Of a stretch of DNA of 35,271 nt, positions 1,393 to 26,173 are shown piece after piece. Numbering within the stretch: position 1 is the first letter of the stretch; each line of letters starts with the position of its first letter. The translations under genes were made by a program, and so were the position numbers. This DNA is from a virus. The stretch spans positions 1-35,271 of IMG/VR virus record IMGVR_UViG_3300027467_000630; one strand, 5' to 3'. The notes under the pieces were generated by a model, which was given only the letters and a program-made list of their open reading frames with translations, had not been told where the DNA came from and ran no database searches.

Positions 1393-2016
1393 TTACTTAT
1401 AGGCTATTGCTTGTCCAGTAGGAAGCTCCAATATTGAGTCTTTCCCAAAAAAATCTTGAAATGCTTTTCTAGCACCAATAGTTTTATATGAACCATAGTC
1501 ATCGCATATCATTACTCCGCCACTAGCCATTTTAGGATAGAAGTAATCAATAGAATCTCGTGTTGGCTCGTATAAATCAACATCTATATGTACAAATGAA
1601 TATTGAGCATCTTCCAGTTGAGAGAATACTTCTGGAATCCATCCTTTATATAGTTTAACATTTTTAAAATCGGATAGGTTATGGGTTGCGGGCTCTATGG
1701 GTATAGATAATTTTATTGTTTTAAAATAATCAGTGTCATGTTCCATAGGTTCTGATACGCCCTCAAATGAGTCTATTCCTATAAACTCTAAAGGACATAA
1801 ATCTGCAACAAAAAACATTGACATTCCAGCAAATGTACCGCACTCAGCCCATTTAGCGCCTATTCTTTTTTTATTTTTTGCAAGTTGTCTTAAAATATAG
1901 AGTCTACCATAAAGAGCGTTGTCAAAAGTATTTGACATGCCAGTAATAGAATTAAACCGACGACATAGAGTCATAAACTCTTCATCGTCGGTCCAACGTG
2001 TAAGGAACCCTTCCAC
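1393..2016 (-). CDS. TylF/MycF-like SAM-dependent O-methyltransferase
   Basis: This 207-residue class I methyltransferase has AECGTFAGMS (about 58-67) as the SAM-binding glycine-rich loop and FIGIDSFEG (about 83-91) as the acidic end of strand 2. The motif VHIDVDLYEPTRDSIDYF, followed by GGVMICDDYGSY, is characteristic of the TylF/macrocin O-methyltransferase family, whose aspartates bind a divalent metal. Family members methylate sugar hydroxyls, so a glycan substrate is plausible. The start is GTG at 2016, in a TAGTG overlap with the preceding gene's stop. It is last in the minus-strand operon, just before the hairpin at 1282-1309. The acceptor is unknown. Confidence 0.85.
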   Translation of the reverse strand: MEGFLTRWTDDEEFMTLCRRFNSITGMSNTFDNALYGRLYILRQLAKNKKRIGAKWAECGTFAGMSMFFVADLCPLEFIGIDSFEGVSEPMEHDTDYFKTIKLSIPIEPATHNLSDFKNVKLYKGWIPEVFSQLEDAQYSFVHIDVDLYEPTRDSIDYFYPKMASGGVMICDDYGSYKTIGARKAFQDFFGKDSILELPTGQAIAYK

Positions 2017-10268: not shown

Positions 10269-12926
10269 GTGAGCGCAAATATTTTTAATGGTTCCAGCTG
10301 GAATCCATTTAAAAAAGTAAAGTTGTTCAACAGCGGTTCTTGGGTTGATGCTAAAAAAGCATTAATTTGGAATGGGTCTGAATGGGTAGCTTTTTATGGC
10401 GCTCCAATAAATGAAACCGCACCTACTTTTACATGGGAGTACCCAGAAGGTATCGGCGGAGGTCTAGGACAAACCGTAACTGTTTCAAACGGAACATGGA
10501 TAGGAACAGTAGATTCATACAAGTATCAATGGCAAAAAGGTCAATTTACGTCAAACGGGATAATTTGGTCCGACCTGACTGGTAAAACAACTAATTCTTT
10601 ATATCTTTCTGAAGATTTAAATATTGTAGGATATGCAATCAGATGTTCTGTAATTGCCGTTGGTGCTCAAGATAGTGAACCAGCATATGCAACTATAGAT
10701 AATACAATTGTTCCTCCTCAAAAACTTACTTATGCTTTTACTCAAGTTTTACAAAATGGCTCAATAAGAATTATTTGGAGCCCATCACTTGGATCCACTG
10801 GCTATACAATTCAATGGCAGGGACCAGGAATACCATTAACATATAAAACTGTAGATGGAAAAGTTAATAACTATTTTGATTGGGATTTTGGATCACCAGA
10901 CGTAAACGCATTGGTGGGCTTAACAACTTTAGGTGTATTAGTTAATCCTATAAATAATAATAATCCATTCCTTCAAATGTCAGGCACACCGTACATTCAG
11001 GGGTACGGAAAAAATGCAGATGTTTCTGACTTGCTTCCTAATAAGCCATCCGTAACCGCAACAGTTTCAGCAAATGTTAATGGATACGACGATAACGCTG
11101 GAAAAATTGAATGGGTAGCAAATAATATTACTCAGTCATATTATGGAGTTTATACAGACATTTTTGGTTCCGAATTTGGTCCAATTTATGAAGGAACAAC
11201 GGCAACAACTCAAAATATAGCAAATTATTCCCCAGGCACATTGTCTGGACCTTGGAGAGTTAAAGTTAATGGAACAGCAAGAGGGTTCGTAGGTCCTTGG
11301 ACATCAGGAGATGGGTATTTTACCTCAGAGCAAAGAATCCCAACAAACCCAACTGTAACGCTCACACCTACTTCAAACATTGTAGCTGGAACAACTCTTA
11401 CGGCTAATTCAGGAAGTTGGGCAAATAACCCTAGCTCTGTAACAGTTCAAATTATTTCTGCAAGCTCTCAATCTTTTGTTCCATATAATGTTGTTGCAAC
11501 GGGATCAGGTTCAACTTCAGCATCTGCAACATATACCTGCTCATCAAGCGATCAGTCAGGTCAACTATATTTTATGGCATTGACTTATGCAAGCAATACA
11601 AAAGGAACTTCAGAGGAATACTACTCTTCAATGGTTCAATGTAAATCAAATGATGTTGCCCCATCAGGTGGAGTAGTAGATATAAATGGTTCTGGTCAAG
11701 TTGGAAGTTCAATTTCTGCCTCCGTTACAACCCCGTTTAGCGGTACAAACTTATCTGTAAGTTCTACTGTTAAGAGATGGCAAAGTGGACAATTTGTTGA
11801 TGTTGGTTCACCTTACACAGTACAGCAATCTGATCTATCAGTGTCTGATGGAAAAGGAACCACAGGGCCAGCTGTATTTTATGCATTTGCAACAGCAACA
11901 AACAGTGTTGGCACCAGAACAATACAGTCTAGTAGTTATGTAACGGCTTCTCCAAATGCTACTGTAACATATTACACTGGAACATCAACATGTAATCCTT
12001 TTAACGGATATTATAGTTCAGCACCATCAGTTTCTGGACCAAGCACAGCATCATCAATGCCTTCAGATACTACAGTAACATCTGGAACTGTAACTATTAA
12101 ATATGTTTATAGAGCTACATCAGCAGAAGCTTTAGCTGCAGCTAAACAAGGTGCATGTGAATATATACCTCCTAGCTTCCCTAGTTTCCCAAGTTTTCCA
12201 ACGTTCCCTAGCTTCCCAACGTTTAAGAGCCCAAGTTTCCCAAGCTTCCCAAGCTTCCCAACGTTCCCAAGCTTCCCAACGTTTAAGAGCCCTAGCTTCC
12301 CTAGCTTCCCAAGCTTCCCAACGTTCCCAACTTTCCCAAGCTTCCCAACGTTTAAGAGCCCTAGCTTCCCTAGCTTCCCAAGCTTCCCAACGTTCCCAAC
12401 TTTCCCAAGCTTCCCAAGCTTTAGCGGCGGAGGTTGTATTGATCAAGATACCCTAATTCAGGTTGTAGGAGAAAACGATACCGTATCTTATAAATCAGCA
12501 AAGGATATTGTTGTTGGAGATATAATTTGGGCATACACATGGAATGAGCTGATAGATGAGTCCATGGGTCAATATAATGTAACGACCAGCACATTTACTT
12601 CTCCTCAAAGAGTTAAAACAGAGATAGCTGGCATATATCCAAAATCGGTTAGCTCTACAATGACAATAAATAACGATCCAGGTTTACGATTCTCTAATGA
12701 AGAGCAAATCTTTGTAAAAGATGAGACTGGATATCACTTTAAAGTTTCAGGAAATATAGTTGCGGGAGATATTGTGTTTGCTGCAAATATAGACGGCACC
12801 GTTTCTGAAATTGTAGTTGAGTCTACTGAAACTATAAATGATACAAGAACGGTTTACAGGTTTAATGCCGAACCTACAGACACAATAGTTGCTGGAAACA
12901 TTATTTGTCATAATTTCAAGTTATAA
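10269..12926 (+). CDS. Fibre/adhesin: Ig and Fn3-like domains, FPSF-repeat spacer, C-terminal Hint domain
   Basis: This 885-residue protein starts at GTG behind GGGAG. The N-terminal about 45 residues carry three W/N-G-S repeats (NGSSWNPFKKVKLFNSGSW), a fibre base. From about 50 to 630 there are Ig-like and Fn3-like beta modules (for example SYKYQWQKGQF, SLGSTGYTIQW). Residues 635-718 are almost only Phe, Pro, Ser and Thr (FPSFPSFPTF units with KSPSF breaks). A Hint domain follows at 723-882: C723 (GGGCIDQDTLIQV), KDIVVGDIIWA, NIVAGDIVFA, and a C-terminal VAGNIICHN with H881-N882, then F883-K884-L885. Hint domains break the peptide bond at their first Cys. The usual block-B TxxH reads SNEE, so activity is uncertain. 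It may be a bacterial-intein-like (BIL) domain. Confidence 0.75.
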   Translation: MSANIFNGSSWNPFKKVKLFNSGSWVDAKKALIWNGSEWVAFYGAPINETAPTFTWEYPEGIGGGLGQTVTVSNGTWIGTVDSYKYQWQKGQFTSNGIIWSDLTGKTTNSLYLSEDLNIVGYAIRCSVIAVGAQDSEPAYATIDNTIVPPQKLTYAFTQVLQNGSIRIIWSPSLGSTGYTIQWQGPGIPLTYKTVDGKVNNYFDWDFGSPDVNALVGLTTLGVLVNPINNNNPFLQMSGTPYIQGYGKNADVSDLLPNKPSVTATVSANVNGYDDNAGKIEWVANNITQSYYGVYTDIFGSEFGPIYEGTTATTQNIANYSPGTLSGPWRVKVNGTARGFVGPWTSGDGYFTSEQRIPTNPTVTLTPTSNIVAGTTLTANSGSWANNPSSVTVQIISASSQSFVPYNVVATGSGSTSASATYTCSSSDQSGQLYFMALTYASNTKGTSEEYYSSMVQCKSNDVAPSGGVVDINGSGQVGSSISASVTTPFSGTNLSVSSTVKRWQSGQFVDVGSPYTVQQSDLSVSDGKGTTGPAVFYAFATATNSVGTRTIQSSSYVTASPNATVTYYTGTSTCNPFNGYYSSAPSVSGPSTASSMPSDTTVTSGTVTIKYVYRATSAEALAAAKQGACEYIPPSFPSFPSFPTFPSFPTFKSPSFPSFPSFPTFPSFPTFKSPSFPSFPSFPTFPTFPSFPTFKSPSFPSFPSFPTFPTFPSFPSFSGGGCIDQDTLIQVVGENDTVSYKSAKDIVVGDIIWAYTWNELIDESMGQYNVTTSTFTSPQRVKTEIAGIYPKSVSSTMTINNDPGLRFSNEEQIFVKDETGYHFKVSGNIVAGDIVFAANIDGTVSEIVVESTETINDTRTVYRFNAEPTDTIVAGNIICHNFKL
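12171..12422 (+). repeat. Tandem FPSFPSFPTF coding repeat
   Basis: About 250 bases of near-identical units built from AGCTTCCC and ACGTTCCC encode alternating Phe-Pro-Ser/Thr with four longer blocks broken by TTTAAGAGCCC (Phe-Lys-Ser-Pro). Near-perfect DNA identity between blocks points to recent expansion or contraction by slippage or recombination. It is in frame and lies inside the 885-aa Hint fibre. Confidence 0.9.
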
Positions 12927-17776: not shown

Positions 17777-19105
17777 ATGGCAAATAAAAAGATAGGTATT
17801 AAATCATCAGCACAAGACAACTTTCTTGAGCCAAATGCAGTAACATCGCTGACAGTGACAGATGTTGGAACAAATAAGGCCTATGGGAGCGGCGAAGCGT
17901 CGCTCTCATGGTCTTTACCAGCAGCCTCTCCACCAGCGACACTCTATACAATTACAACAACACCTGCATCTACAACACAAACTACAACAAATACTAGCTA
18001 TACATTTACTGGTTTAACAGCAGGTTCGTATACATTTACTGTAGTTGCTTCAAATAATGCTGGAAATAGCCAGCCAACAACTTCTGCGTCTACAGCGATT
18101 ACTACTGTTCCGCAAGCACCATCAGCGCCTCAGGCATCTTCGCCAAACGCAAACCAGGATGTTGTTACATGGTCAGCTCCAGCTAATAATGGAGGCAAGG
18201 CTATCACTGGATACACATTAAAGTCAAGTGATGGTCCAACGTATAATTACGATGCAAACACAACATCGGCAACAATTTCAGAAACTGCAGGGACAGCACA
18301 AACTTACCAGGTTTTAGCTAAAAATGCTAACGGTAATTCTACTTATTCTGCTAGTTCAAATTCTATTACTACTACGGCGCCGTTCTTCCCACCTTACTTC
18401 CCATTCTTCCCGCCGTATTTCCCATTCTTCCCATTCTTCCCACCTTACTTCCCACCTTACTTCCCATTCTTCCCATTCTTCCCACCATACTTCCCACCGT
18501 TCTTCCCATTCTTCCCATTCTTCCCACCATACTTCCCGCCATACTTCCCTTACTTCCCATTCTTCCCACCATTCTTCCCACCTTCATTCGGTCCGTTCTT
18601 CCCACCTTCATTCGGTCCGTTCTTCCCACCAGGATTCAAGGGATACAAGTGTCTTGGATCAGATACAAAGGTACTAACCGCAACAAATGGATGGGTTCCA
18701 GCACACATGCTGTTGGTTGGAGATAAAATTCTAACCGTAAGCCCAGAATATATGAATAATGGAGAAAACTTAAAAGACTTTAAGATTTCAGACCATGTTA
18801 CATTTGTTGAGTCAGAGATTGTAAAAATTGAAAAGAGTCAAAAAACATTACTTAAGTTTAATGACCTTGAAGCTACATTCTCAGACGGGCAGCCAGTATT
18901 CGTTAAGACTGAAAACGGAATAACCTATAAAGATACTGGAGAGGTCAAAATTGGAGACGTATTAGTCATGATAAGCGAAATGTCAGAGGTCTCATATGTA
19001 GAGATTGTTAATATAACAAAGACAGAAGACCTACATGATGTATATGATGTAAGAACAACTCCAAATCCATGGTATATTGCAGGTAATTTCTTAACAATAG
19101 CCTAA
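17777..19105 (+). CDS. Fibre/adhesin: two Fn3 domains, FFPPYFP spacer, C-terminal Hint-like domain
   Basis: This 442-residue protein has two fibronectin type III modules (about 20-110, ending in TSYTFTGLTAGSYTFTVVAS, and about 113-200, with DVVTWSAPANNGGKAITGYT). Then comes a spacer at about 203-286 made almost only of Phe, Pro and Tyr (FFPPYFPFFP units), then a Hint-like domain from C292 (KGYKCLGSDTKVLTATNGWV, VGDKILTV, KIGDVLVM). The end reads VYDVRTTPNPWYIAGNFLTIA: the usual terminal His-Asn is absent and block B reads FSDGQPVF without His. The N-terminal Cys reaction could still occur, but C-terminal cleavage cannot. It looks like a paralogue of the 885-aa protein. AGGAG lies before the ATG. 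A strong terminator follows. Confidence 0.75.
   Translation: MANKKIGIKSSAQDNFLEPNAVTSLTVTDVGTNKAYGSGEASLSWSLPAASPPATLYTITTTPASTTQTTTNTSYTFTGLTAGSYTFTVVASNNAGNSQPTTSASTAITTVPQAPSAPQASSPNANQDVVTWSAPANNGGKAITGYTLKSSDGPTYNYDANTTSATISETAGTAQTYQVLAKNANGNSTYSASSNSITTTAPFFPPYFPFFPPYFPFFPFFPPYFPPYFPFFPFFPPYFPPFFPFFPFFPPYFPPYFPYFPFFPPFFPPSFGPFFPPSFGPFFPPGFKGYKCLGSDTKVLTATNGWVPAHMLLVGDKILTVSPEYMNNGENLKDFKISDHVTFVESEIVKIEKSQKTLLKFNDLEATFSDGQPVFVKTENGITYKDTGEVKIGDVLVMISEMSEVSYVEIVNITKTEDLHDVYDVRTTPNPWYIAGNFLTIA
18383..18631 (+). repeat. Tandem FFPPYFP coding repeat
   Basis: About 250 bases of TTCTTCCCACC / TACTTCCCACC units encode Phe/Tyr-Pro runs, ending with two exact copies of a Pro-Ser-Phe-Gly-Pro unit. 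It is in frame inside the 442-aa Hint fibre. The third codon bases vary (CCA, CCG, CCT), so it is older or more drifted than the FPSF repeat at 12171. Confidence 0.9.
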
Positions 19106-19205: not shown

Positions 19206-19949
19206 ATGAATGACTGGTTTGACAAAGATCGATCAGAGACCACAGTAAATAGAAGGCCAAATAAGTTATTTGAAGGAATAACTGTGGTAAATGAAGCACT
19301 AGGTCTTGATGTTTATAAAAATGTTTTTTCTAAAGAAGATATAAAAAGATACATAGACACACTTGAATCAAATTTAGTAAGCGGAACTCAGTATTCGTGG
19401 AGCGAAGCTAGAGTAACTAATTCTGCGACTCCAATTAAAAAAGCAAGAGATTGTGTTGATTTTAAAATGAATACAAAATCCCTTGGACCAATAAATGATA
19501 AAAATAAAGAATTGCATGAAGTTTATTCTGAAATATATGAAAAGTTAAAAAAATGTGTTAATGATTATTGTCAGTATTGGGGTATTGAAGTTAAATATTA
19601 CGAAGTATTTAACTTTGTAAAGTATGAGGGTGAGGGCAAAGAGTTTAAGATTCATGCTGATCATGGTCCAGTATATAGCGCAACAGTTTCAGCTGTTATT
19701 TATTTAAACGATGACTACGAGGGTGGCGAGATATACTTCCCTAGATTGGACAACAAAGTAATAAAACCAGAATATGGAGATATTGCAATATTCCCATCCA
19801 ACTACATTTACGAACACGCATCTTTACCAATTAAGTCAGGAACAAAATATTGTGTAGTAATCATGATGGATTTAAATGATATTGCCCATCAACCACAAGC
19901 TGCAAAACTATTTACCGAGCAACCAGGCTACGGATCATCGACATACTAA
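19206..19949 (+). CDS. 2OG-Fe(II) oxygenase, prolyl-4-hydroxylase type (array gene 1)
   Basis: This 247-residue protein has Fe ligands H150 and D152 (KIHADHG) and H204 (YEHASLP), and 2-oxoglutarate Lys K214 (SGTKY). The central motif YLNDDYEGGEIYFPR (167-180) and PEYGDIAIFPS are those of the P4H-like family, which hydroxylates prolyl or other side chains using O2 and 2-oxoglutarate. The frame is open to 19152, but that part overlaps the promoter; ATG 19206 follows AAGGGGA. It is first of six paralogues. A 23-base stretch over the central motif (19701-19723) is identical in the next gene, showing shared descent. A fibre-protein substrate is inferred from context only. Confidence 0.9.
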   Translation: MNDWFDKDRSETTVNRRPNKLFEGITVVNEALGLDVYKNVFSKEDIKRYIDTLESNLVSGTQYSWSEARVTNSATPIKKARDCVDFKMNTKSLGPINDKNKELHEVYSEIYEKLKKCVNDYCQYWGIEVKYYEVFNFVKYEGEGKEFKIHADHGPVYSATVSAVIYLNDDYEGGEIYFPRLDNKVIKPEYGDIAIFPSNYIYEHASLPIKSGTKYCVVIMMDLNDIAHQPQAAKLFTEQPGYGSSTY

Positions 19950-19958
19950 AGGATAAAA

Positions 19959-20669
19959 ATGGAAATATTAAAAACTGAAGCAGAAGTAAAACAAATGATG
20001 CGTGATAAAATGCAGGCATTTAACGCACCTACATGGACAGAAAAAATTGATTTGGGCGATGGAATATGGTGTTATAGAAATGTTTTTAAACCAGGGATCC
20101 CTGAAAGACTTGAAAATATTTTAGCTGACGAATCACATCAGTATAAGTGGTCTCCAGCGTATGTTGGATATCAAGAAAGAATGCCAGACTATAGAGACTG
20201 CATGGATATTAAATTTAAAAGAACTGATATTGTCCAAGATCCAACTGAACCTTCAATAAAGCTACAAGAAATTTGGCAAGAATGCTTTGATGCACAGGTT
20301 GCAGCTGTACAAGACTATGCAAAAATGTATAATATTTATCAGCTAAGATACTGGGAAGCGTTTAACTACATTAAATATGAGCCAGGACATCACTTCATGG
20401 AGCACCACGATAATGGATTTTCTTATAACTGTGTAGTATCATTGGTTGGTTATTTAAACGATGACTACGAGGGCGGAGAGTTGTATTTTAGACTCCAAAA
20501 GCTAGACATTAAACCGCAAGCTGGAGATCTATACATATTCCCTTCAAACTACATGTATCCTCATCAGGCAAAAAAGGTTCATAATGGAACTAAGTATTCA
20601 ATTGTAACAATGCTTGATTATAGTGAAAAATATCACACACCAGAGCTATATAGGGAGACTGGCGATTAA
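19959..20669 (+). CDS. 2OG-Fe(II) oxygenase, prolyl-4-hydroxylase type (array gene 2)
   Basis: This 236-residue protein has Fe ligands H149 and D151 (EHHDNG) and H202 (MYPHQAKK), 2-oxoglutarate Lys K212 (NGTKYSIV), and central motif YLNDDYEGGELYFR. It is the closest relative of array gene 1, sharing an N-terminal helical half with YRDCMDIKFK (about 78-87 here; RDCVDFKMN there). It starts 9 bases after the previous stop behind AAAGGA, and its stop overlaps the next ATG (TAATG). Using Lys rather than Arg to bind 2-oxoglutarate is typical of prolyl-4-hydroxylases. The substrate is not known. Confidence 0.9.
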   Translation: MEILKTEAEVKQMMRDKMQAFNAPTWTEKIDLGDGIWCYRNVFKPGIPERLENILADESHQYKWSPAYVGYQERMPDYRDCMDIKFKRTDIVQDPTEPSIKLQEIWQECFDAQVAAVQDYAKMYNIYQLRYWEAFNYIKYEPGHHFMEHHDNGFSYNCVVSLVGYLNDDYEGGELYFRLQKLDIKPQAGDLYIFPSNYMYPHQAKKVHNGTKYSIVTMLDYSEKYHTPELYRETGD

Positions 20670-21370
20670 TGGAGCCGATTTTAAAAGCTTACAGGATGGG
20701 AACAAAGTTTTTAAATCTTGATCCACTTCCAGTAAGAAGAGAATGGATGGATGCAACTCCAGATAAACATGCTTATCATTGCTATCCAGTAACAACAGCA
20801 AATACAATTGGTTGGTATTTATCCTGTCCAGAAGATATAGTTTTTACTTGGAATGGAGTTGTTGACACTACTGACTCTACTGTAAAAATATTAAAAGGAG
20901 AAGATTGGTGTTATACAGGCAGAGGACAAGCATCAATAAGTTTTAAAACTGGATTGCTATTTAGATCAAATCAAACAACAAGCCTGCTTGCTGTCAATCC
21001 ACCAAATTATTTTAATAAAAACTTTGAAGTTATAAGCTCACTTATATCTACATCTTTTTATCCAAATGAGTTGCCTCTTGCAATACAAGTACGTGTTGCA
21101 AATGAGGAGGTTTTAATTCCCGCAGGAACTCCAATTGCAGCTATTTTGCCAATATCTTTAACCGCCTTAAAAGATCAATATATTCAAGTCGAAAATTTTA
21201 TTATGACACAAGAATATGCCGATGCACAAAGAAGCTACGGTGAAGCATCTTTTGAGCATACAAAAAACGGAGAGTGGACAGACTGGTATAGAGATGCGGT
21301 AAACGAAAAAGGCGAAAAGGTTGGGGAACACGAAGTTAAAAATTTAAAGCTAGGTGTAGTGGTTAAATGA
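20669..21370 (+). CDS. DUF6065-like protein, 233 aa
   Basis: The layout RREWMDATPDKHAYHCYPVT, ANTIGWYLSCPEDI and VFTWNG (about 23-65) matches my recollection of the DUF6065 family, whose members are of unknown function. A strand-rich core follows and a conserved turn IPAGTPIAAILPIS (about 149-162). There are no obvious metal ligands. The gene overlaps both neighbours (TAATG and ATGA), so it belongs to the oxygenase operon. It is related to the next gene through the PAGTPIA turn and probably the overall fold. A binding or partner role for the oxygenases is a guess. Confidence 0.6.
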   Translation: MEPILKAYRMGTKFLNLDPLPVRREWMDATPDKHAYHCYPVTTANTIGWYLSCPEDIVFTWNGVVDTTDSTVKILKGEDWCYTGRGQASISFKTGLLFRSNQTTSLLAVNPPNYFNKNFEVISSLISTSFYPNELPLAIQVRVANEEVLIPAGTPIAAILPISLTALKDQYIQVENFIMTQEYADAQRSYGEASFEHTKNGEWTDWYRDAVNEKGEKVGEHEVKNLKLGVVVK

Positions 21371-22095
21371 CAAATATAATAAAATTTGTTACAAACAGAG
21401 ATTGGCTAACGAAAGATAGTATTTCGAAACCAGAGCCAATAATAAAAACCATACCTTCGTGGTTTCGTGAAGCAGATAGATTTGCAAAAAAACCAGATGG
21501 AGAGTATTGGATAGGCCCAGATGGAGGCAAGGTTCCTACCTGGAAGGCATGCCCAGCTATATTTGATATTATGGGTACTGGATACACATTAAAAACTCCA
21601 TGCGATATAGAATTTTATTTAGGTGATTTTAAATCAATTTCTGTAAAGGTTTCTGAAAAAAAGTATGAAGATTTTGTTACAAAACGTGATCCAATGCCTC
21701 AGTTTCAACATCCAGAAGGATATTACAGAACTCATTTTGCTTGGATGCCAGACTGGGCAGTAGAAACTCCAGAAGGTTATAGTGTTCTTTATACTCAACC
21801 TTTTAATAGATTTGAGTTGCCATTTTTAACCACAAGCGGTATCATTGATAATGATAAGGTTAATCTAATGGGTTCAATGCCATTTTTTATCAGAGAGGGA
21901 TTTTCAGGAGTTTTACCTGCTGGTACTCCAATAGCACAAATGATTCCTTTTAAAAGAGAAGACTGGCAAAGTGAAATTATAATAGAAAAGCCTTCTGCTC
22001 TATATAAAAAAAATATAGAAAATTCAAAAAAGTATAGAGTTCCCGACGGTGGAGTGTATAAGAATTTAGTATGGTCAAAAAGGACCTACTCTTAA
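21367..22095 (+). CDS. DUF6065-related protein, 242 aa
   Basis: Not confidently assigned. It shares with the preceding gene the order: N-terminal proline motif (KPEPIIKTIPSWFREADRF), a GxxxxxPCDIEFYLGD strand where the sibling has GWYLSCPEDI, and a C-terminal LPAGTPIAQMIPFKREDW. It is likely a diverged tandem paralogue. The middle (YSVLYTQPFNRFELPFLTTS, FFIREGFSG) is beta-rich. It starts in an ATGA overlap with the sibling. The position inside the oxygenase array suggests it acts with those enzymes, but no activity can be read from the sequence. Confidence 0.5.
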   Translation: MTNIIKFVTNRDWLTKDSISKPEPIIKTIPSWFREADRFAKKPDGEYWIGPDGGKVPTWKACPAIFDIMGTGYTLKTPCDIEFYLGDFKSISVKVSEKKYEDFVTKRDPMPQFQHPEGYYRTHFAWMPDWAVETPEGYSVLYTQPFNRFELPFLTTSGIIDNDKVNLMGSMPFFIREGFSGVLPAGTPIAQMIPFKREDWQSEIIIEKPSALYKKNIENSKKYRVPDGGVYKNLVWSKRTYS

Positions 22096-22106
22096 TAGGA
22101 GATATA

Positions 22107-22790
22107 ATGGATAACAACCTAGCTAACGATATGTCAAACTGGGATAACAGAAAGTCAATTACGCCTTCTGGGTTTTTTGGAAGCTCTGTCGAAATGATTC
22201 AGTCAAGAGAAAATTTTATGACCAAAGAAGAACTTGATTTTTTATTAGATGCTGCAAAGAGTATAACGACCTGGGATAGAACAGAAACACACTATAATGA
22301 AAACGGAACAATTATATACGATTCATCATATTGGGATAACAGGGTTGCTTCAAGGCCAATACTAGATAAAATAGATCCAAAGATATCTTTAGTCATTGAG
22401 GATATGGTTCAAAGGTTAAAATTAGAAGTAGATAAATTTTTTGATGTGGATGCATTGCCAACTAGTCCAGCTATTGTTAGATGGATGGAGGGGTATAGAC
22501 AAGAACCCCATGCTGACAAAGAATTACATGTAGGACCAGATGCTGGCAAGCCAAACGATTTTCCTTGGTACGACCTAGCGGGGTTGTTTTATTTAAATGA
22601 TGACTATGAGGGCGGAGAATTATATTTTCCAAATCAAGATATTAAATTTAAACCAAAGCCTGGCGCAGCGTACTTTTTCCCAGGAGATATGAACTTTATA
22701 CATGGTGTAACGGAAATTACAAGCGGAATAAGATACGTAATTCCATTTTTTTGGACAATACTTAAACACACTGGAGATAGACAGCCATGA
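22107..22790 (+). CDS. 2OG-Fe(II) oxygenase (array gene 3)
   Basis: This 227-residue protein has Fe ligands H135 and D137 (EPHADKE) and H199 (FIHGVTEI), with R209 (SGIRYVIPFFW) as the 2-oxoglutarate residue. The central motif YLNDDYEGGELYFPN is followed by KPKPGAAYFFPG. The frame is open to 22071, but ATG 22107 is chosen because AGGAG lies 6 bases upstream. Arg instead of Lys at the 2-oxoglutarate site puts it with genes 4 and 5 rather than with genes 1, 2 and 6, so substrate choice may differ. Its stop overlaps the next ATG (ATGA). Confidence 0.9.
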   Translation: MDNNLANDMSNWDNRKSITPSGFFGSSVEMIQSRENFMTKEELDFLLDAAKSITTWDRTETHYNENGTIIYDSSYWDNRVASRPILDKIDPKISLVIEDMVQRLKLEVDKFFDVDALPTSPAIVRWMEGYRQEPHADKELHVGPDAGKPNDFPWYDLAGLFYLNDDYEGGELYFPNQDIKFKPKPGAAYFFPGDMNFIHGVTEITSGIRYVIPFFWTILKHTGDRQP

Positions 22791-23599
22791 GTAAAGATAT
22801 AGAATACATAGAAATTTATCCAAAAATAATTGTATATAGAAACGTTTTTGAAGATCCAGATCTATTTTTAAAAAAATCTTTAGAGTGTGAAGGATGGGAA
22901 GAATGGTATACATTTGGAACAATGTTATCTTTACAGGAATCCCCAATATCTTTTCAAAATTTTCCAACAAAAGAAGAATATGATAATGCTCGTGCTTGGG
23001 ACCTAGGAGATAGCAATAGCGTTTTACGTGGAGAGCTATGTAAAGAGCTAGGCGATATATTTTATAATGTAACAAAGAATTACATTGAAAAATATCCAGA
23101 CGAGTCTTTGCAAAACTGGATTAAGAATTCTGCATCAGTTAATAAATATTTTGCTGATGCTTGTATATCTGAAAATTATGCAATGAACTACCATACTGAT
23201 TTTATTCAACCACTTAAAGATAATCCAGGTATAAAGTTTGGAATTACTACAACGTTCTACCTAAATGAAGACTATGAAAATGGAGAAATTTGTTTTAAGA
23301 TAAATGATGAGTATGTTTCTCATAAACCTAGAAAGGGAGACGTTATAGTTTTCCCGTCAACTCCACCATATTATCATGCTGTAAGAAAAAATACAGGAAA
23401 TGACAGATATATGATTAGGTCATTTTGGCAATTTCAATACGAAGGATCAGAAGAATGGCTAGACAATGAAAAAAAGTATGGTCCAGAAGTGTGGGAAGAA
23501 ATGGAAAAGGAAAGATACAAGTCAGAAAAATTTAATGGTCAGTTTATAGCAGAGTCGTTACACCACCATTTTGGAAAAGATAACGGTAAATATTTATGA
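22787..23599 (+). CDS. 2OG-Fe(II) oxygenase (array gene 4)
   Basis: This 270-residue protein has Fe ligands H136 and D138 (NYHTDFI) and H197 (YYHAVRK), with R207 (DRYMIRSFW). The central motif is slightly changed to YLNEDYENGEICFK. The C-terminal tail (about 215-270) is charged and helical, ending HHHFGKDNGKYL, and is not part of the oxygenase core. The N-terminal helix pattern DIEYIEIYPKIIVYRNVF is shared with gene 6 (FEKISYYKNVI). The start overlaps the previous stop in ATGA, and its own stop overlaps the CDGSH fusion gene the same way. Confidence 0.88.
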   Translation: MSKDIEYIEIYPKIIVYRNVFEDPDLFLKKSLECEGWEEWYTFGTMLSLQESPISFQNFPTKEEYDNARAWDLGDSNSVLRGELCKELGDIFYNVTKNYIEKYPDESLQNWIKNSASVNKYFADACISENYAMNYHTDFIQPLKDNPGIKFGITTTFYLNEDYENGEICFKINDEYVSHKPRKGDVIVFPSTPPYYHAVRKNTGNDRYMIRSFWQFQYEGSEEWLDNEKKYGPEVWEEMEKERYKSEKFNGQFIAESLHHHFGKDNGKYL

Positions 23600-24435
23600 G
23601 ACAGTGTACATGCGGAAGGTCAAATGCATACCCATACTGCGACGGCACACATAAAATGAAAAGGAAAAATATGAAAGACGGAATTATTGAAATACTTGAT
23701 AAAGATAAATTTGTTGTTCTTCAGGACGAAGAAGTGCCACAAGAAAAAGCAGGTAAGCTAGGAGTATATACAAATAAAATTGTTGAGATACCAAACTTTA
23801 TAGATCCAGACATTGTGCCAAAAATGATAAACTTTTTTGAAAATTGCGATGTCGAATGGGGAGATATTGCATTTTACGGTTCTTCAGGAAAAGGAATAAA
23901 AACAGATTCTGAAACAATGCAAAAATTTGGTTTACCAGATGAGTTTTTTGAAAAGTTAAAAAATAAATACAAAGAATCAGTAGAGTTGATCTTTGGAAGA
24001 GAAGTTAGGGCAAATACTTCACATGCTCAAAAATGGGACGTGGGCGGATTTGCAAGCCCACATTCAGATAATTCAGATAACGAAGGCAAGCCTAATGCTT
24101 TTGAAATAAATAAATATGTTGGAATTTTATATCTTAATAATGATTATGAAGGCGGAGAACTATATTTTTGTGATAAAGACAATGAAATGAAGCCATATTT
24201 GTCATTTAAGCCAAATGCGTACTCATACTACGTTTTCCCTGGCGGATATGAAAATATACATGGGGTTTCAGAAATAACAAAAGGTACAAGATATACAATG
24301 GTATCATTTTGGGATTTTGCAGATCTAGTTTATGATGATGAAACATTAGAAAGATGGAAAGAAGAAGAAAAGCAAGTAAGAATTGAACAGGCAAAACAAA
24401 AAGAAGAATGGTTAAAGGGTAACAAATATGCCTAA
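23596..24435 (+). CDS. CDGSH iron-sulfur motif fused to a 2OG-Fe(II) oxygenase (array gene 5)
   Basis: This 279-residue protein begins MRQCTCGRSNAYPYCDGTHK. It is an exact match to the CDGSH pattern CxCxxS/TxxxPxCDGS/A/TH, with C4, C6, C15 and H19 as the 3-Cys 1-His ligands of a [2Fe-2S] cluster. An oxygenase domain follows with H156 and D158 (SPHSDNS), H222 (NIHGVSE), R232 (KGTRYTM) and motif YLNNDYEGGELYF. A helical, charged tail follows (about 245-279). The ATG overlaps the previous stop in ATGA, supporting the full-length start. An internal ATG (M26, 23671) has AAAAGGA before it, so a form lacking the cluster could also be made. The cluster may deliver electrons to keep iron reduced; that is inference. 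Confidence 0.85.
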   Translation: MRQCTCGRSNAYPYCDGTHKMKRKNMKDGIIEILDKDKFVVLQDEEVPQEKAGKLGVYTNKIVEIPNFIDPDIVPKMINFFENCDVEWGDIAFYGSSGKGIKTDSETMQKFGLPDEFFEKLKNKYKESVELIFGREVRANTSHAQKWDVGGFASPHSDNSDNEGKPNAFEINKYVGILYLNNDYEGGELYFCDKDNEMKPYLSFKPNAYSYYVFPGGYENIHGVSEITKGTRYTMVSFWDFADLVYDDETLERWKEEEKQVRIEQAKQKEEWLKGNKYA

Positions 24436-25036: not shown

Positions 25037-26173
25037 ATGGGAACAACAGGAAAAGGATTTAGATATCCACAATATTCAGACACGCCAGACGTGCCTAGAG
25101 ATCTTTCGTATTTAGCAGCAGATGTTGATGCTTACTTAGACGCTCATCCAGGCCCTCAAGGTCCTGCTGCAACAATTCAAATAGGAACAATCACTACGGT
25201 TGCATCAACGGTTCCTGCAGCAGTTACAAACGTTGGAACAGAAACAGATGCAATATTTAATTTTACATTGCCTAGAGGCGTAGATGGAATAATTGGTGGT
25301 GACGGTCCAGCAGGACCATCAAATGTACTTCAAATTGGAACAGTTCAAACAGGAGCTGCAGGTTCTTCAGCAGTCGCAACAATAACTGGTACATCTCCAT
25401 CGCAAACATTAAATTTTGTTATACCTAAAGGTGATACAGGTGCAACAGGAGCAACAGGGCCACAGGGTCCAAAGGGTGATGCAGCAGCAACAATAAATGT
25501 TGGATCAACTACAACTGGTGCTGCTGGAACCAATGCATCAGTTACAAATTCTGGAACATCAAGTGCTGTTGTATTAAACTTTACAATACCACGAGGTGCA
25601 ACAGGTGCAACAGGACCCCAAGGTCCAGCTGGAGCAGATGGTGCAGCTGCAACACTTGATCCAATTAATGGTCTTGCTTCATTTCCAGCTCCAATTCCAG
25701 GTTCATCGTACGGCGTTAACTCAAATTGGTTTCCAGTAGCAAATAATTATGTTTCTATAGGACAGCCGATTGACGCTGGATTAGGGGTAACTACCAACAA
25801 ATTTTGGAAAACAATTTATTCCAACACTGGAACAATTAACACCTCAGATTTAAGATTAAAAACAGATATACAAGATTCCACCCTCGGACTTGATTTTATA
25901 AATTCTTTACGTCCAGTAAGTTATAAATTTATAGAAGGCGGAAGAGATCAATACGGTGACATTATTCCAGGTTCTAGAACACACTGGGGGTTAATTGCAC
26001 AAGAAGTAAAATCTGTAATAGATACCACAGGCGTAGAAGATTTTGCTGGTTGGGTTCTTTTAGATAAATCTGATTCAAATTCAGAACAAGCGCTTAGATA
26101 TGAAGAATTCATTGCACCACTAATTAAAGCAGTTCAAGAGCTTACAGCAAGAGTTGAAGCTTTAGAGGCTTAA
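25037..26173 (+). CDS. Collagen-like tail fibre with C-terminal S74 self-cleaving chaperone
   Basis: This 378-residue protein has an N-terminal fibre base (FRYPQYSDTPDVPRDLSYLA). Three repeats of the unit TIxxGTxTTGAAG...LNFTIPRG follow (about 45-80, 95-130 and 150-190), linked by Gly-X-Y triplets, including two six-triplet runs (GDTGATGATGPQGPKGDA and GATGATGPQGPAGADGAA). After a tip domain comes the S74 domain from S270: SDLRLKTDI holds the Ser/Lys dyad S270 and K275, followed by LRPVSYKF, GLIAQEV and LRYEEFIAPLIKAVQEL. In known phage fibres this domain drives trimer folding and then cuts itself off just before the Ser. The collagen prolines sit at the X position of triplets. Confidence 0.9.
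   Translation: MGTTGKGFRYPQYSDTPDVPRDLSYLAADVDAYLDAHPGPQGPAATIQIGTITTVASTVPAAVTNVGTETDAIFNFTLPRGVDGIIGGDGPAGPSNVLQIGTVQTGAAGSSAVATITGTSPSQTLNFVIPKGDTGATGATGPQGPKGDAAATINVGSTTTGAAGTNASVTNSGTSSAVVLNFTIPRGATGATGPQGPAGADGAAATLDPINGLASFPAPIPGSSYGVNSNWFPVANNYVSIGQPIDAGLGVTTNKFWKTIYSNTGTINTSDLRLKTDIQDSTLGLDFINSLRPVSYKFIEGGRDQYGDIIPGSRTHWGLIAQEVKSVIDTTGVEDFAGWVLLDKSDSNSEQALRYEEFIAPLIKAVQELTARVEALEA

Follow-up and report, generated by a model that had tools for sequence, protein, structure and literature searches.

A minimal CDGSH motif fused to a 2OG-Fe(II) oxygenase in a lake phage, and its recurrence with other oxygenase families in viral contigs

The closest described relatives of the element reported here are the CISD/NEET proteins (PF09360), whose solved members have in common the CDGSH motif, a preceding N-strand with a hydrophobic residue 1, a P-motif and a beta-sandwich (Lin 2011, PMC3174974). 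Position 1 is part of the sandwich core, and Lin et al. argue that a CDGSH module needs a structural frame and must exist in pairs (PMC3174974). Type 4 CISDs place a lysine at the cluster opening, type 5 is a tandem CDGSH fused to a glutamate-synthase FMN domain, and type 7 combines CDGSH with DUF1271 (PMC3174974). Types 5 and 7 are thus precedents for fusion of CDGSH to other domains, but both are full CISD folds with other partners, and the CDGSH–oxygenase combination described below lies outside the seven CISD types of Lin et al. (PMC3174974). The original prediction for this locus had noted that no phage fusion with this enzyme class was known to be described; in agreement, the literature searched yielded no paper on phage CDGSH proteins or on a CDGSH–oxygenase fusion.

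The window analysed here is a 35 kb virus record (35,271 nucleotides) of a lake phage. Its capsid and portal proteins are 56–61% identical to their counterparts in large Streptomyces phages, and an actinobacterial host is therefore likely. Our reanalysis confirmed the coordinates and reading of ORF 23596–24435, whose 279-residue frame is organized as follows.

23596–24435, plus strand: CDGSH–oxygenase fusion gene (O5), 279 aa; start codon overlapping the stop of the preceding oxygenase gene (ATGA)
23605–23652, plus strand: CDGSH motif, residues 4–19 (CTCGRSNAYPYCDGTH); putative ligands C4, C6, C15 and H19; no N-strand before it
23653–23670, plus strand: variable basic linker (KMKRKN), which also holds the SD-like AAGGA of the internal start
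23671–24435, plus strand: oxygenase from M26 (254 aa); prolyl-hydroxylase-type fold; H156/D158/H222/R232

The start codon M1 overlaps the stop of the previous gene and is separated from the upstream in-frame TAA by two codons only (Ile, Phe), which places the motif truly at the extreme N-terminus. A truncated longer CDGSH domain is ruled out, as the frame is closed two codons upstream of M1.

The N-terminus of the protein, MRQCTCGRSNAYPYCDGTHKMKRKN-MKDG, contains C4, C6, S9, P13 and C15-D16-G17-T18-H19, so that every position of the CISD motif C2, C4, (S/T)7, P11, C13, D14, G15, (S/T/A)16, H17 is present, as had been read from the first 19 residues alone. The Pfam zf-CDGSH profile matches the protein with E=1.2e-6 and 29.1 bits (curated cut-off 29.5), aligning residues 4–20 with profile positions 32–48 of 48, the C-terminal third of the domain only; array relatives reach 29.5–34.3 bits in whole-record searches, at or above the cut-off. 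No PHROG or NCBIfam model covering the module was found. Some relatives have N, E or S in place of motif G15. Ten distinct nucleotide variants of the region, which were picked from related contigs by their position without regard to the motif, retain every putative ligand, and their CDGSH codons show pS 0.56, pN 0.073 and pN/pS 0.13, as compared with a pN/pS of 0.66 for the linker ahead of M26. These ratios show strong purifying selection on the CDGSH codons; a chance motif is ruled out by this conservation and pN/pS value, the motif being intact in all ten variants.

The complete oxygenase domain predicted directly behind the motif is also borne out. The 2OG-FeII_Oxy_3 profile (PF13640) scores 39.5 bits against a cut-off of 27, and the HxD...H triad with its distal arginine (H156, D158, H222 and R232) is invariant or nearly so among 43 relatives. 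The AlphaFold model of the protein has a pLDDT of 88 overall and about 68 over residues 1–20, and the solved structures that its fold matches best are collagen prolyl 3-hydroxylase P3H1 (E=4e-11) and PHD2 (about 3e-9), in agreement with a sequence match to P3H1 (8e-8). By profile and predicted DSBH fold, the enzyme is a 2OG-Fe(II) oxygenase of the prolyl-hydroxylase type. It has the fold and the HxD...H...R active site of the collagen prolyl 3-hydroxylase and PHD-type enzymes, but is a short phage form with a CDGSH extension. A0A6J7WK87, annotated as 'procollagen-proline 3-dioxygenase' from an uncultured Caudovirales phage in BFVD, is 66% identical over 279 alignment columns, a comparison by overall identity alone.

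Comparison of the module with CISD proteins reveals both likeness and departure. The nearest solved CDGSH proteins by sequence, 3tbn and CISD3, have the pattern C-x-C-x2-S/T-x3-P-x-C-D-G-S/T/A-H in common with the window module, with all ligands and a lysine after the histidine. By comparison, the window module is about 20 residues long, lacks beta-sandwich, N-strand and P-motif, and is polar at position 1. The residues M-R-Q alone precede C4, leaving no room for an N-strand; no P-motif strand (G-P-Phi-x-Phi) is present in the sequence beside the motif, and no beta-sandwich surrounds residues 1–20 in the AlphaFold model at the confidence reached there. A polar residue (Q, K, R or D) occupies position 1 in 37 of the 37 oxygenase-fused contexts among the matches listed; distinct contexts with the fusion at the N-terminus number at least 23. 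The missing N-strand, hydrophobic position 1 and P-motif make a conventional [2Fe-2S] dimer doubtful for the oxygenase-fused modules. The window module is thus a CDGSH motif by sequence, yet lacks two defining structural features of CISD. To our knowledge it would be the smallest CDGSH unit, and it would offer a test of whether the CDGSH motif alone can hold a cluster. In most oxygenase-linked modules the residue after the ligand histidine is lysine, a feature also seen in type 4 CISDs (PMC3174974).

The fusion gene lies within an array of 2OG oxygenase genes, the other members and neighbours of which in the window are listed below.

19212–19949, plus strand: 2OG oxygenase (O1)
19959–20669, plus strand: 2OG oxygenase (O2)
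20669–22095, plus strand: DUF6065 gene and a phrog_7084 relative, neighbours inside the array
22071–22790, plus strand: 2OG oxygenase (O3); in arrays the module lies one or two genes further on
22787–23599, plus strand: preceding 2OG oxygenase (O4); the CDGSH-bearing gene in L029, L030 and L036–L047
24428–25015, plus strand: 2OG oxygenase (O6)
25037–26173, plus strand: tail-fibre-like gene with S74 chaperone and collagen-like Gly-X-Y repeats; candidate prolyl-hydroxylase substrate

Relatives have in common the order O1–O2–D1–D2–O3–variable block–O5–O6–tail genes, in which the position of the module shifts. CDGSH is fused to O5 in the window and in L010–L026, and to further oxygenases, including the Ox type, in L027, L033, L135 and L183; a stand-alone ORF of 36–39 codons precedes O5 in L031, L048, L061 and L169, and a stand-alone, often longer ORF follows O4 in most of L056–L072. 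The stand-alone array modules span 36 to about 70 codons and overlap or abut their oxygenase neighbours. The array fusions involve three oxygenase paralogue types (O5, O4 and Ox), the partner being whichever oxygenase follows. On a tree of 32 O5 proteins the module changes location at least 10 times, and the fused-Ox rows fall together with a fused-O5 row (support 100/96). These changes could also come from exchange between phages; with or without exchange, the tree indicates that the module moves independently of the enzyme joined to it.

All 12 of the module-bearing array records searched contain one CDGSH copy beside at least five oxygenase genes, which fits an action shared among the enzymes. 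Some arrays (L067, L082, L084, L086 and L077) lack the module and have no copy elsewhere in their records, meaning that the module is dispensable for the enzymes; nor did a 17-residue profile, run at maximum sensitivity, pick up a degenerate module in the module-free arrays. No CDGSH–oxygenase relative was found among isolated phage records. A cellular origin was considered and dropped, as none of 39 related oxygenase loci in bacterial genomes carries the CDGSH motif. Almost all of the complete oxygenase arrays seen include the DUF6065 gene and its relative, which suggests a shared function.

Pattern scans of viral contigs, as the original prediction had proposed for the domain pair, revealed that CDGSH and 2OG oxygenases are also fused outside the arrays; counts refer to the matches listed. 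The module precedes other 2OG-FeII_Oxy_3 proteins in L099 and L189, and in L503 by its own profile only, and precedes a JmjC_2 oxygenase with an HxD...H triad in L119, L121, L123 and L173 (29.8 bits, cut-off 22); the AlphaFold model of this last protein, made from four sequences, had a pLDDT of 39 and was left out of comparisons. In a third oxygenase type (O0), CDGSH is instead C-terminal, at residue 248, in about 24 distinct proteins among the matches listed. This type is related to the window minus-strand ORF 292–1110 and has neither a Pfam match above cut-off nor a PHROG; its assignment as a 2OG oxygenase comes from a profile without such a seed member (E=1e-5) and a visible HxD...H...R, evidence that is weaker than for the other fused types. 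By these tests, all partners longer than 140 residues among the matches listed are oxygenases. The sole non-oxygenase partner among them is the shorter WYL_2 (Sm-like SH3 barrel), with CDGSH at its C-terminus. Taken together, these sequences indicate that unrelated phages have independently joined the module to further 2OG-oxygenase families. At the sequence level, the CDGSH–2OG oxygenase fusion is confirmed as real, conserved and recurrent, and its architecture is new.

Further observations were made in the same contigs. The C-terminal-CDGSH oxygenases are 273–280 residues long and common in viral contigs (L482, L491, L463, L464 and about 20 more), with no match for L482 among isolated phage records. 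WYL_2–CDGSH members occur in L479, L468, L483, L212 and L194, two detected by scan and the rest by sequence likeness. Unrelated viral contigs (L195, L185, L262, L197, L222 and others) encode stand-alone CDGSH ORFs of about 30–60 codons with no PHROG, and some unrelated viral contigs have three CDGSH genes.

Outside the arrays, 16 of 60 CDGSH variants have a 2OG oxygenase no more than 3 kb away, as compared with 0 of 120 random viral loci, a control that was not habitat-matched. By comparison with regions 4–9 kb away on the same contigs, oxygenase density near CDGSH is only modestly higher. We therefore dropped strict local linkage outside the arrays; what we claim is that the pairing recurs through fusions and through location in the arrays, and no tight linkage in general. 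For 54 of the 133 CDGSH ORFs listed, no oxygenase was found within 3 kb.

The gene may be translated from two starts. The original prediction pointed to an internal ATG at 23671 (M26) with a ribosome site and a possible second, module-free oxygenase, and our comparison lends this support. Most unfused homologues begin at M26, which is preceded in the window by an SD-like AAGGA; such a site is found in 8 of 8 distinct fused variants (dG –5.5 to –8.4), in which the amino acids of the linker vary while the site stays. In each variant the site is stronger than the mean of synonymous recodings (–1.3 to –3.5), with individual P values of 0.007–0.12 that are not independent. In the window, dG is –5.8 at M26 as compared with –3.0 at M1; M1 has a weak ribosome site, but lies in the ATGA coupling overlap. 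Since the M26 site is kept and M1 lies in this overlap, it is plausible that both the full fusion and an oxygenase without the module are made.

Aquatic phages very commonly encode 2OG-Fe(II) oxygenases, enzymes whose substrates are mostly unknown and which lose activity once their iron is oxidised. As far as we know, bacteria are generally without ascorbate, and what restores oxidised 2OG oxygenases there is unclear; a metal module repeatedly attached to several oxygenase families would be a direct handle on how such enzymes are restored. We propose that the module is a phage-borne metal accessory supplying iron or electrons to 2OG-Fe(II) oxygenases, a reading to which we assign a probability of roughly 0.4. 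Metal, probably a [2Fe-2S] cluster, would be bound through C4, C6, C15 and H19, and the cluster could be held by a module dimer or completed by the oxygenase. In place of ascorbate, the module would deliver iron or electrons to the active site and so keep the oxygenases active, and it would act in cis when fused and in trans as a separate protein. A helper of the enzyme class is suggested because one module accompanies at least five oxygenases, occurs free or fused, and has joined several families; a separate single-copy mini-gene that is mobile and independently fused fits such a class helper better than a feature special to this enzyme. Supply is preferred because the CDGSH clusters characterised so far can hand on electrons or whole clusters (PMC5859297) and the enzymes need reduced iron. 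The more specific proposal, that a new, minimal CDGSH class evolved by phages, of about 20 residues with no sandwich of its own, binds [2Fe-2S] on or with oxygenases of at least three families as a built-in or exchangeable iron or electron supplier and ascorbate substitute, is put forward tentatively, as a possibility on the unlikely side.

The main rival to iron or electron supply sees in the module a small zinc knuckle and no redox cluster; the knuckle would serve for docking, to a tail protein, ribosome, nucleic acid or partner oxygenase. A 17-residue C-x-C-x8-C-x3-H loop could be held by one Zn ion and would require no beta-sandwich, in keeping with the absent N-strand and P-motif and the uniformly polar position 1. 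The basic linker directly after the module and the WYL_2 partner, which suggests a general docking tag, point the same way. The SEC-C zinc motif, C-x-C-x8-C-(C/H), has C-x-C-x8-C in common with the module, but the histidine of the window comes three residues later (DGT). Against zinc, the residues specific to a cluster are retained (S/T7, P11, D14, S/T16 and H17 of the motif, and the lysine after the histidine), Pfam returns CDGSH and neither SEC-C nor any other zinc family for the window protein at E<=1, and fusion mainly to oxygenases would be unexpected for a general docking tag. We regard the zinc knuckle as a serious contender, though an unlikely one.

Alternatively, the module could be a redox or iron-status switch, a redox switch being also an idea of the original prediction; oxidative stress would cost the module its cluster and so switch the oxygenase attached to it on or off. 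The redox activity of CDGSH clusters (PMC5859297) and the direct junction of module and enzyme speak for this, but where the module stands alone, or translation begins at the conserved internal start, the enzyme would escape regulation, and a single module is present for five or more oxygenases; a switch is accordingly improbable. Slightly less probable again is a part in general phage iron or Fe-S supply, serving host or other phage proteins, with the array location a hitch-hiking convenience: the CDGSH ORFs listed without an oxygenase found nearby and the single copy per record in array phages would agree with it, but the repeated fusion to several oxygenase families would not. That the main product starts at M26, the upstream codons being a separate or vestigial leader peptide, is suggested by the better ribosome site at M26 and by homologues that start there or have a split frame, but is very improbable given the strong purifying selection on the CDGSH codons, the frame open through M26 in 8 of 8 fused variants, the coupled M1, and O4, Ox, JmjC and C-terminal O0 fusions that cannot all be artefacts.

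Prolyl residues of tail proteins may be the substrate of the prolyl-hydroxylase-like enzymes. The Gly-X-Y tail fibre downstream and a Pro-rich tail protein encoded upstream in the window are candidates. Of 11 near relatives checked, 10 have the collagen-like tail-fibre gene downstream, and the more distant CDGSH arrays that were retrieved yielded no collagen repeats. Collagen-fibre hydroxylation was accordingly set aside as the purpose of the module: because the repeats were found in the nearer arrays only, fibre hydroxylation stays a guess about the substrate.

Other genes of the window were also noted. Two tail-like proteins (17777–19105 and 10269–12926) contain PPYFPFFP or FPSFPSFPTF repeats followed, by eye, by a Hint/intein-type C-terminus; Pfam Intein_splicing gives a weak match to the former (19.5 bits, cut-off 35.8) and none to the latter. 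The minus-strand ORF 292–1110, a further probable 2OG oxygenase with no Pfam match, lies near a TylF-type methyltransferase gene (1393–2016, minus strand).
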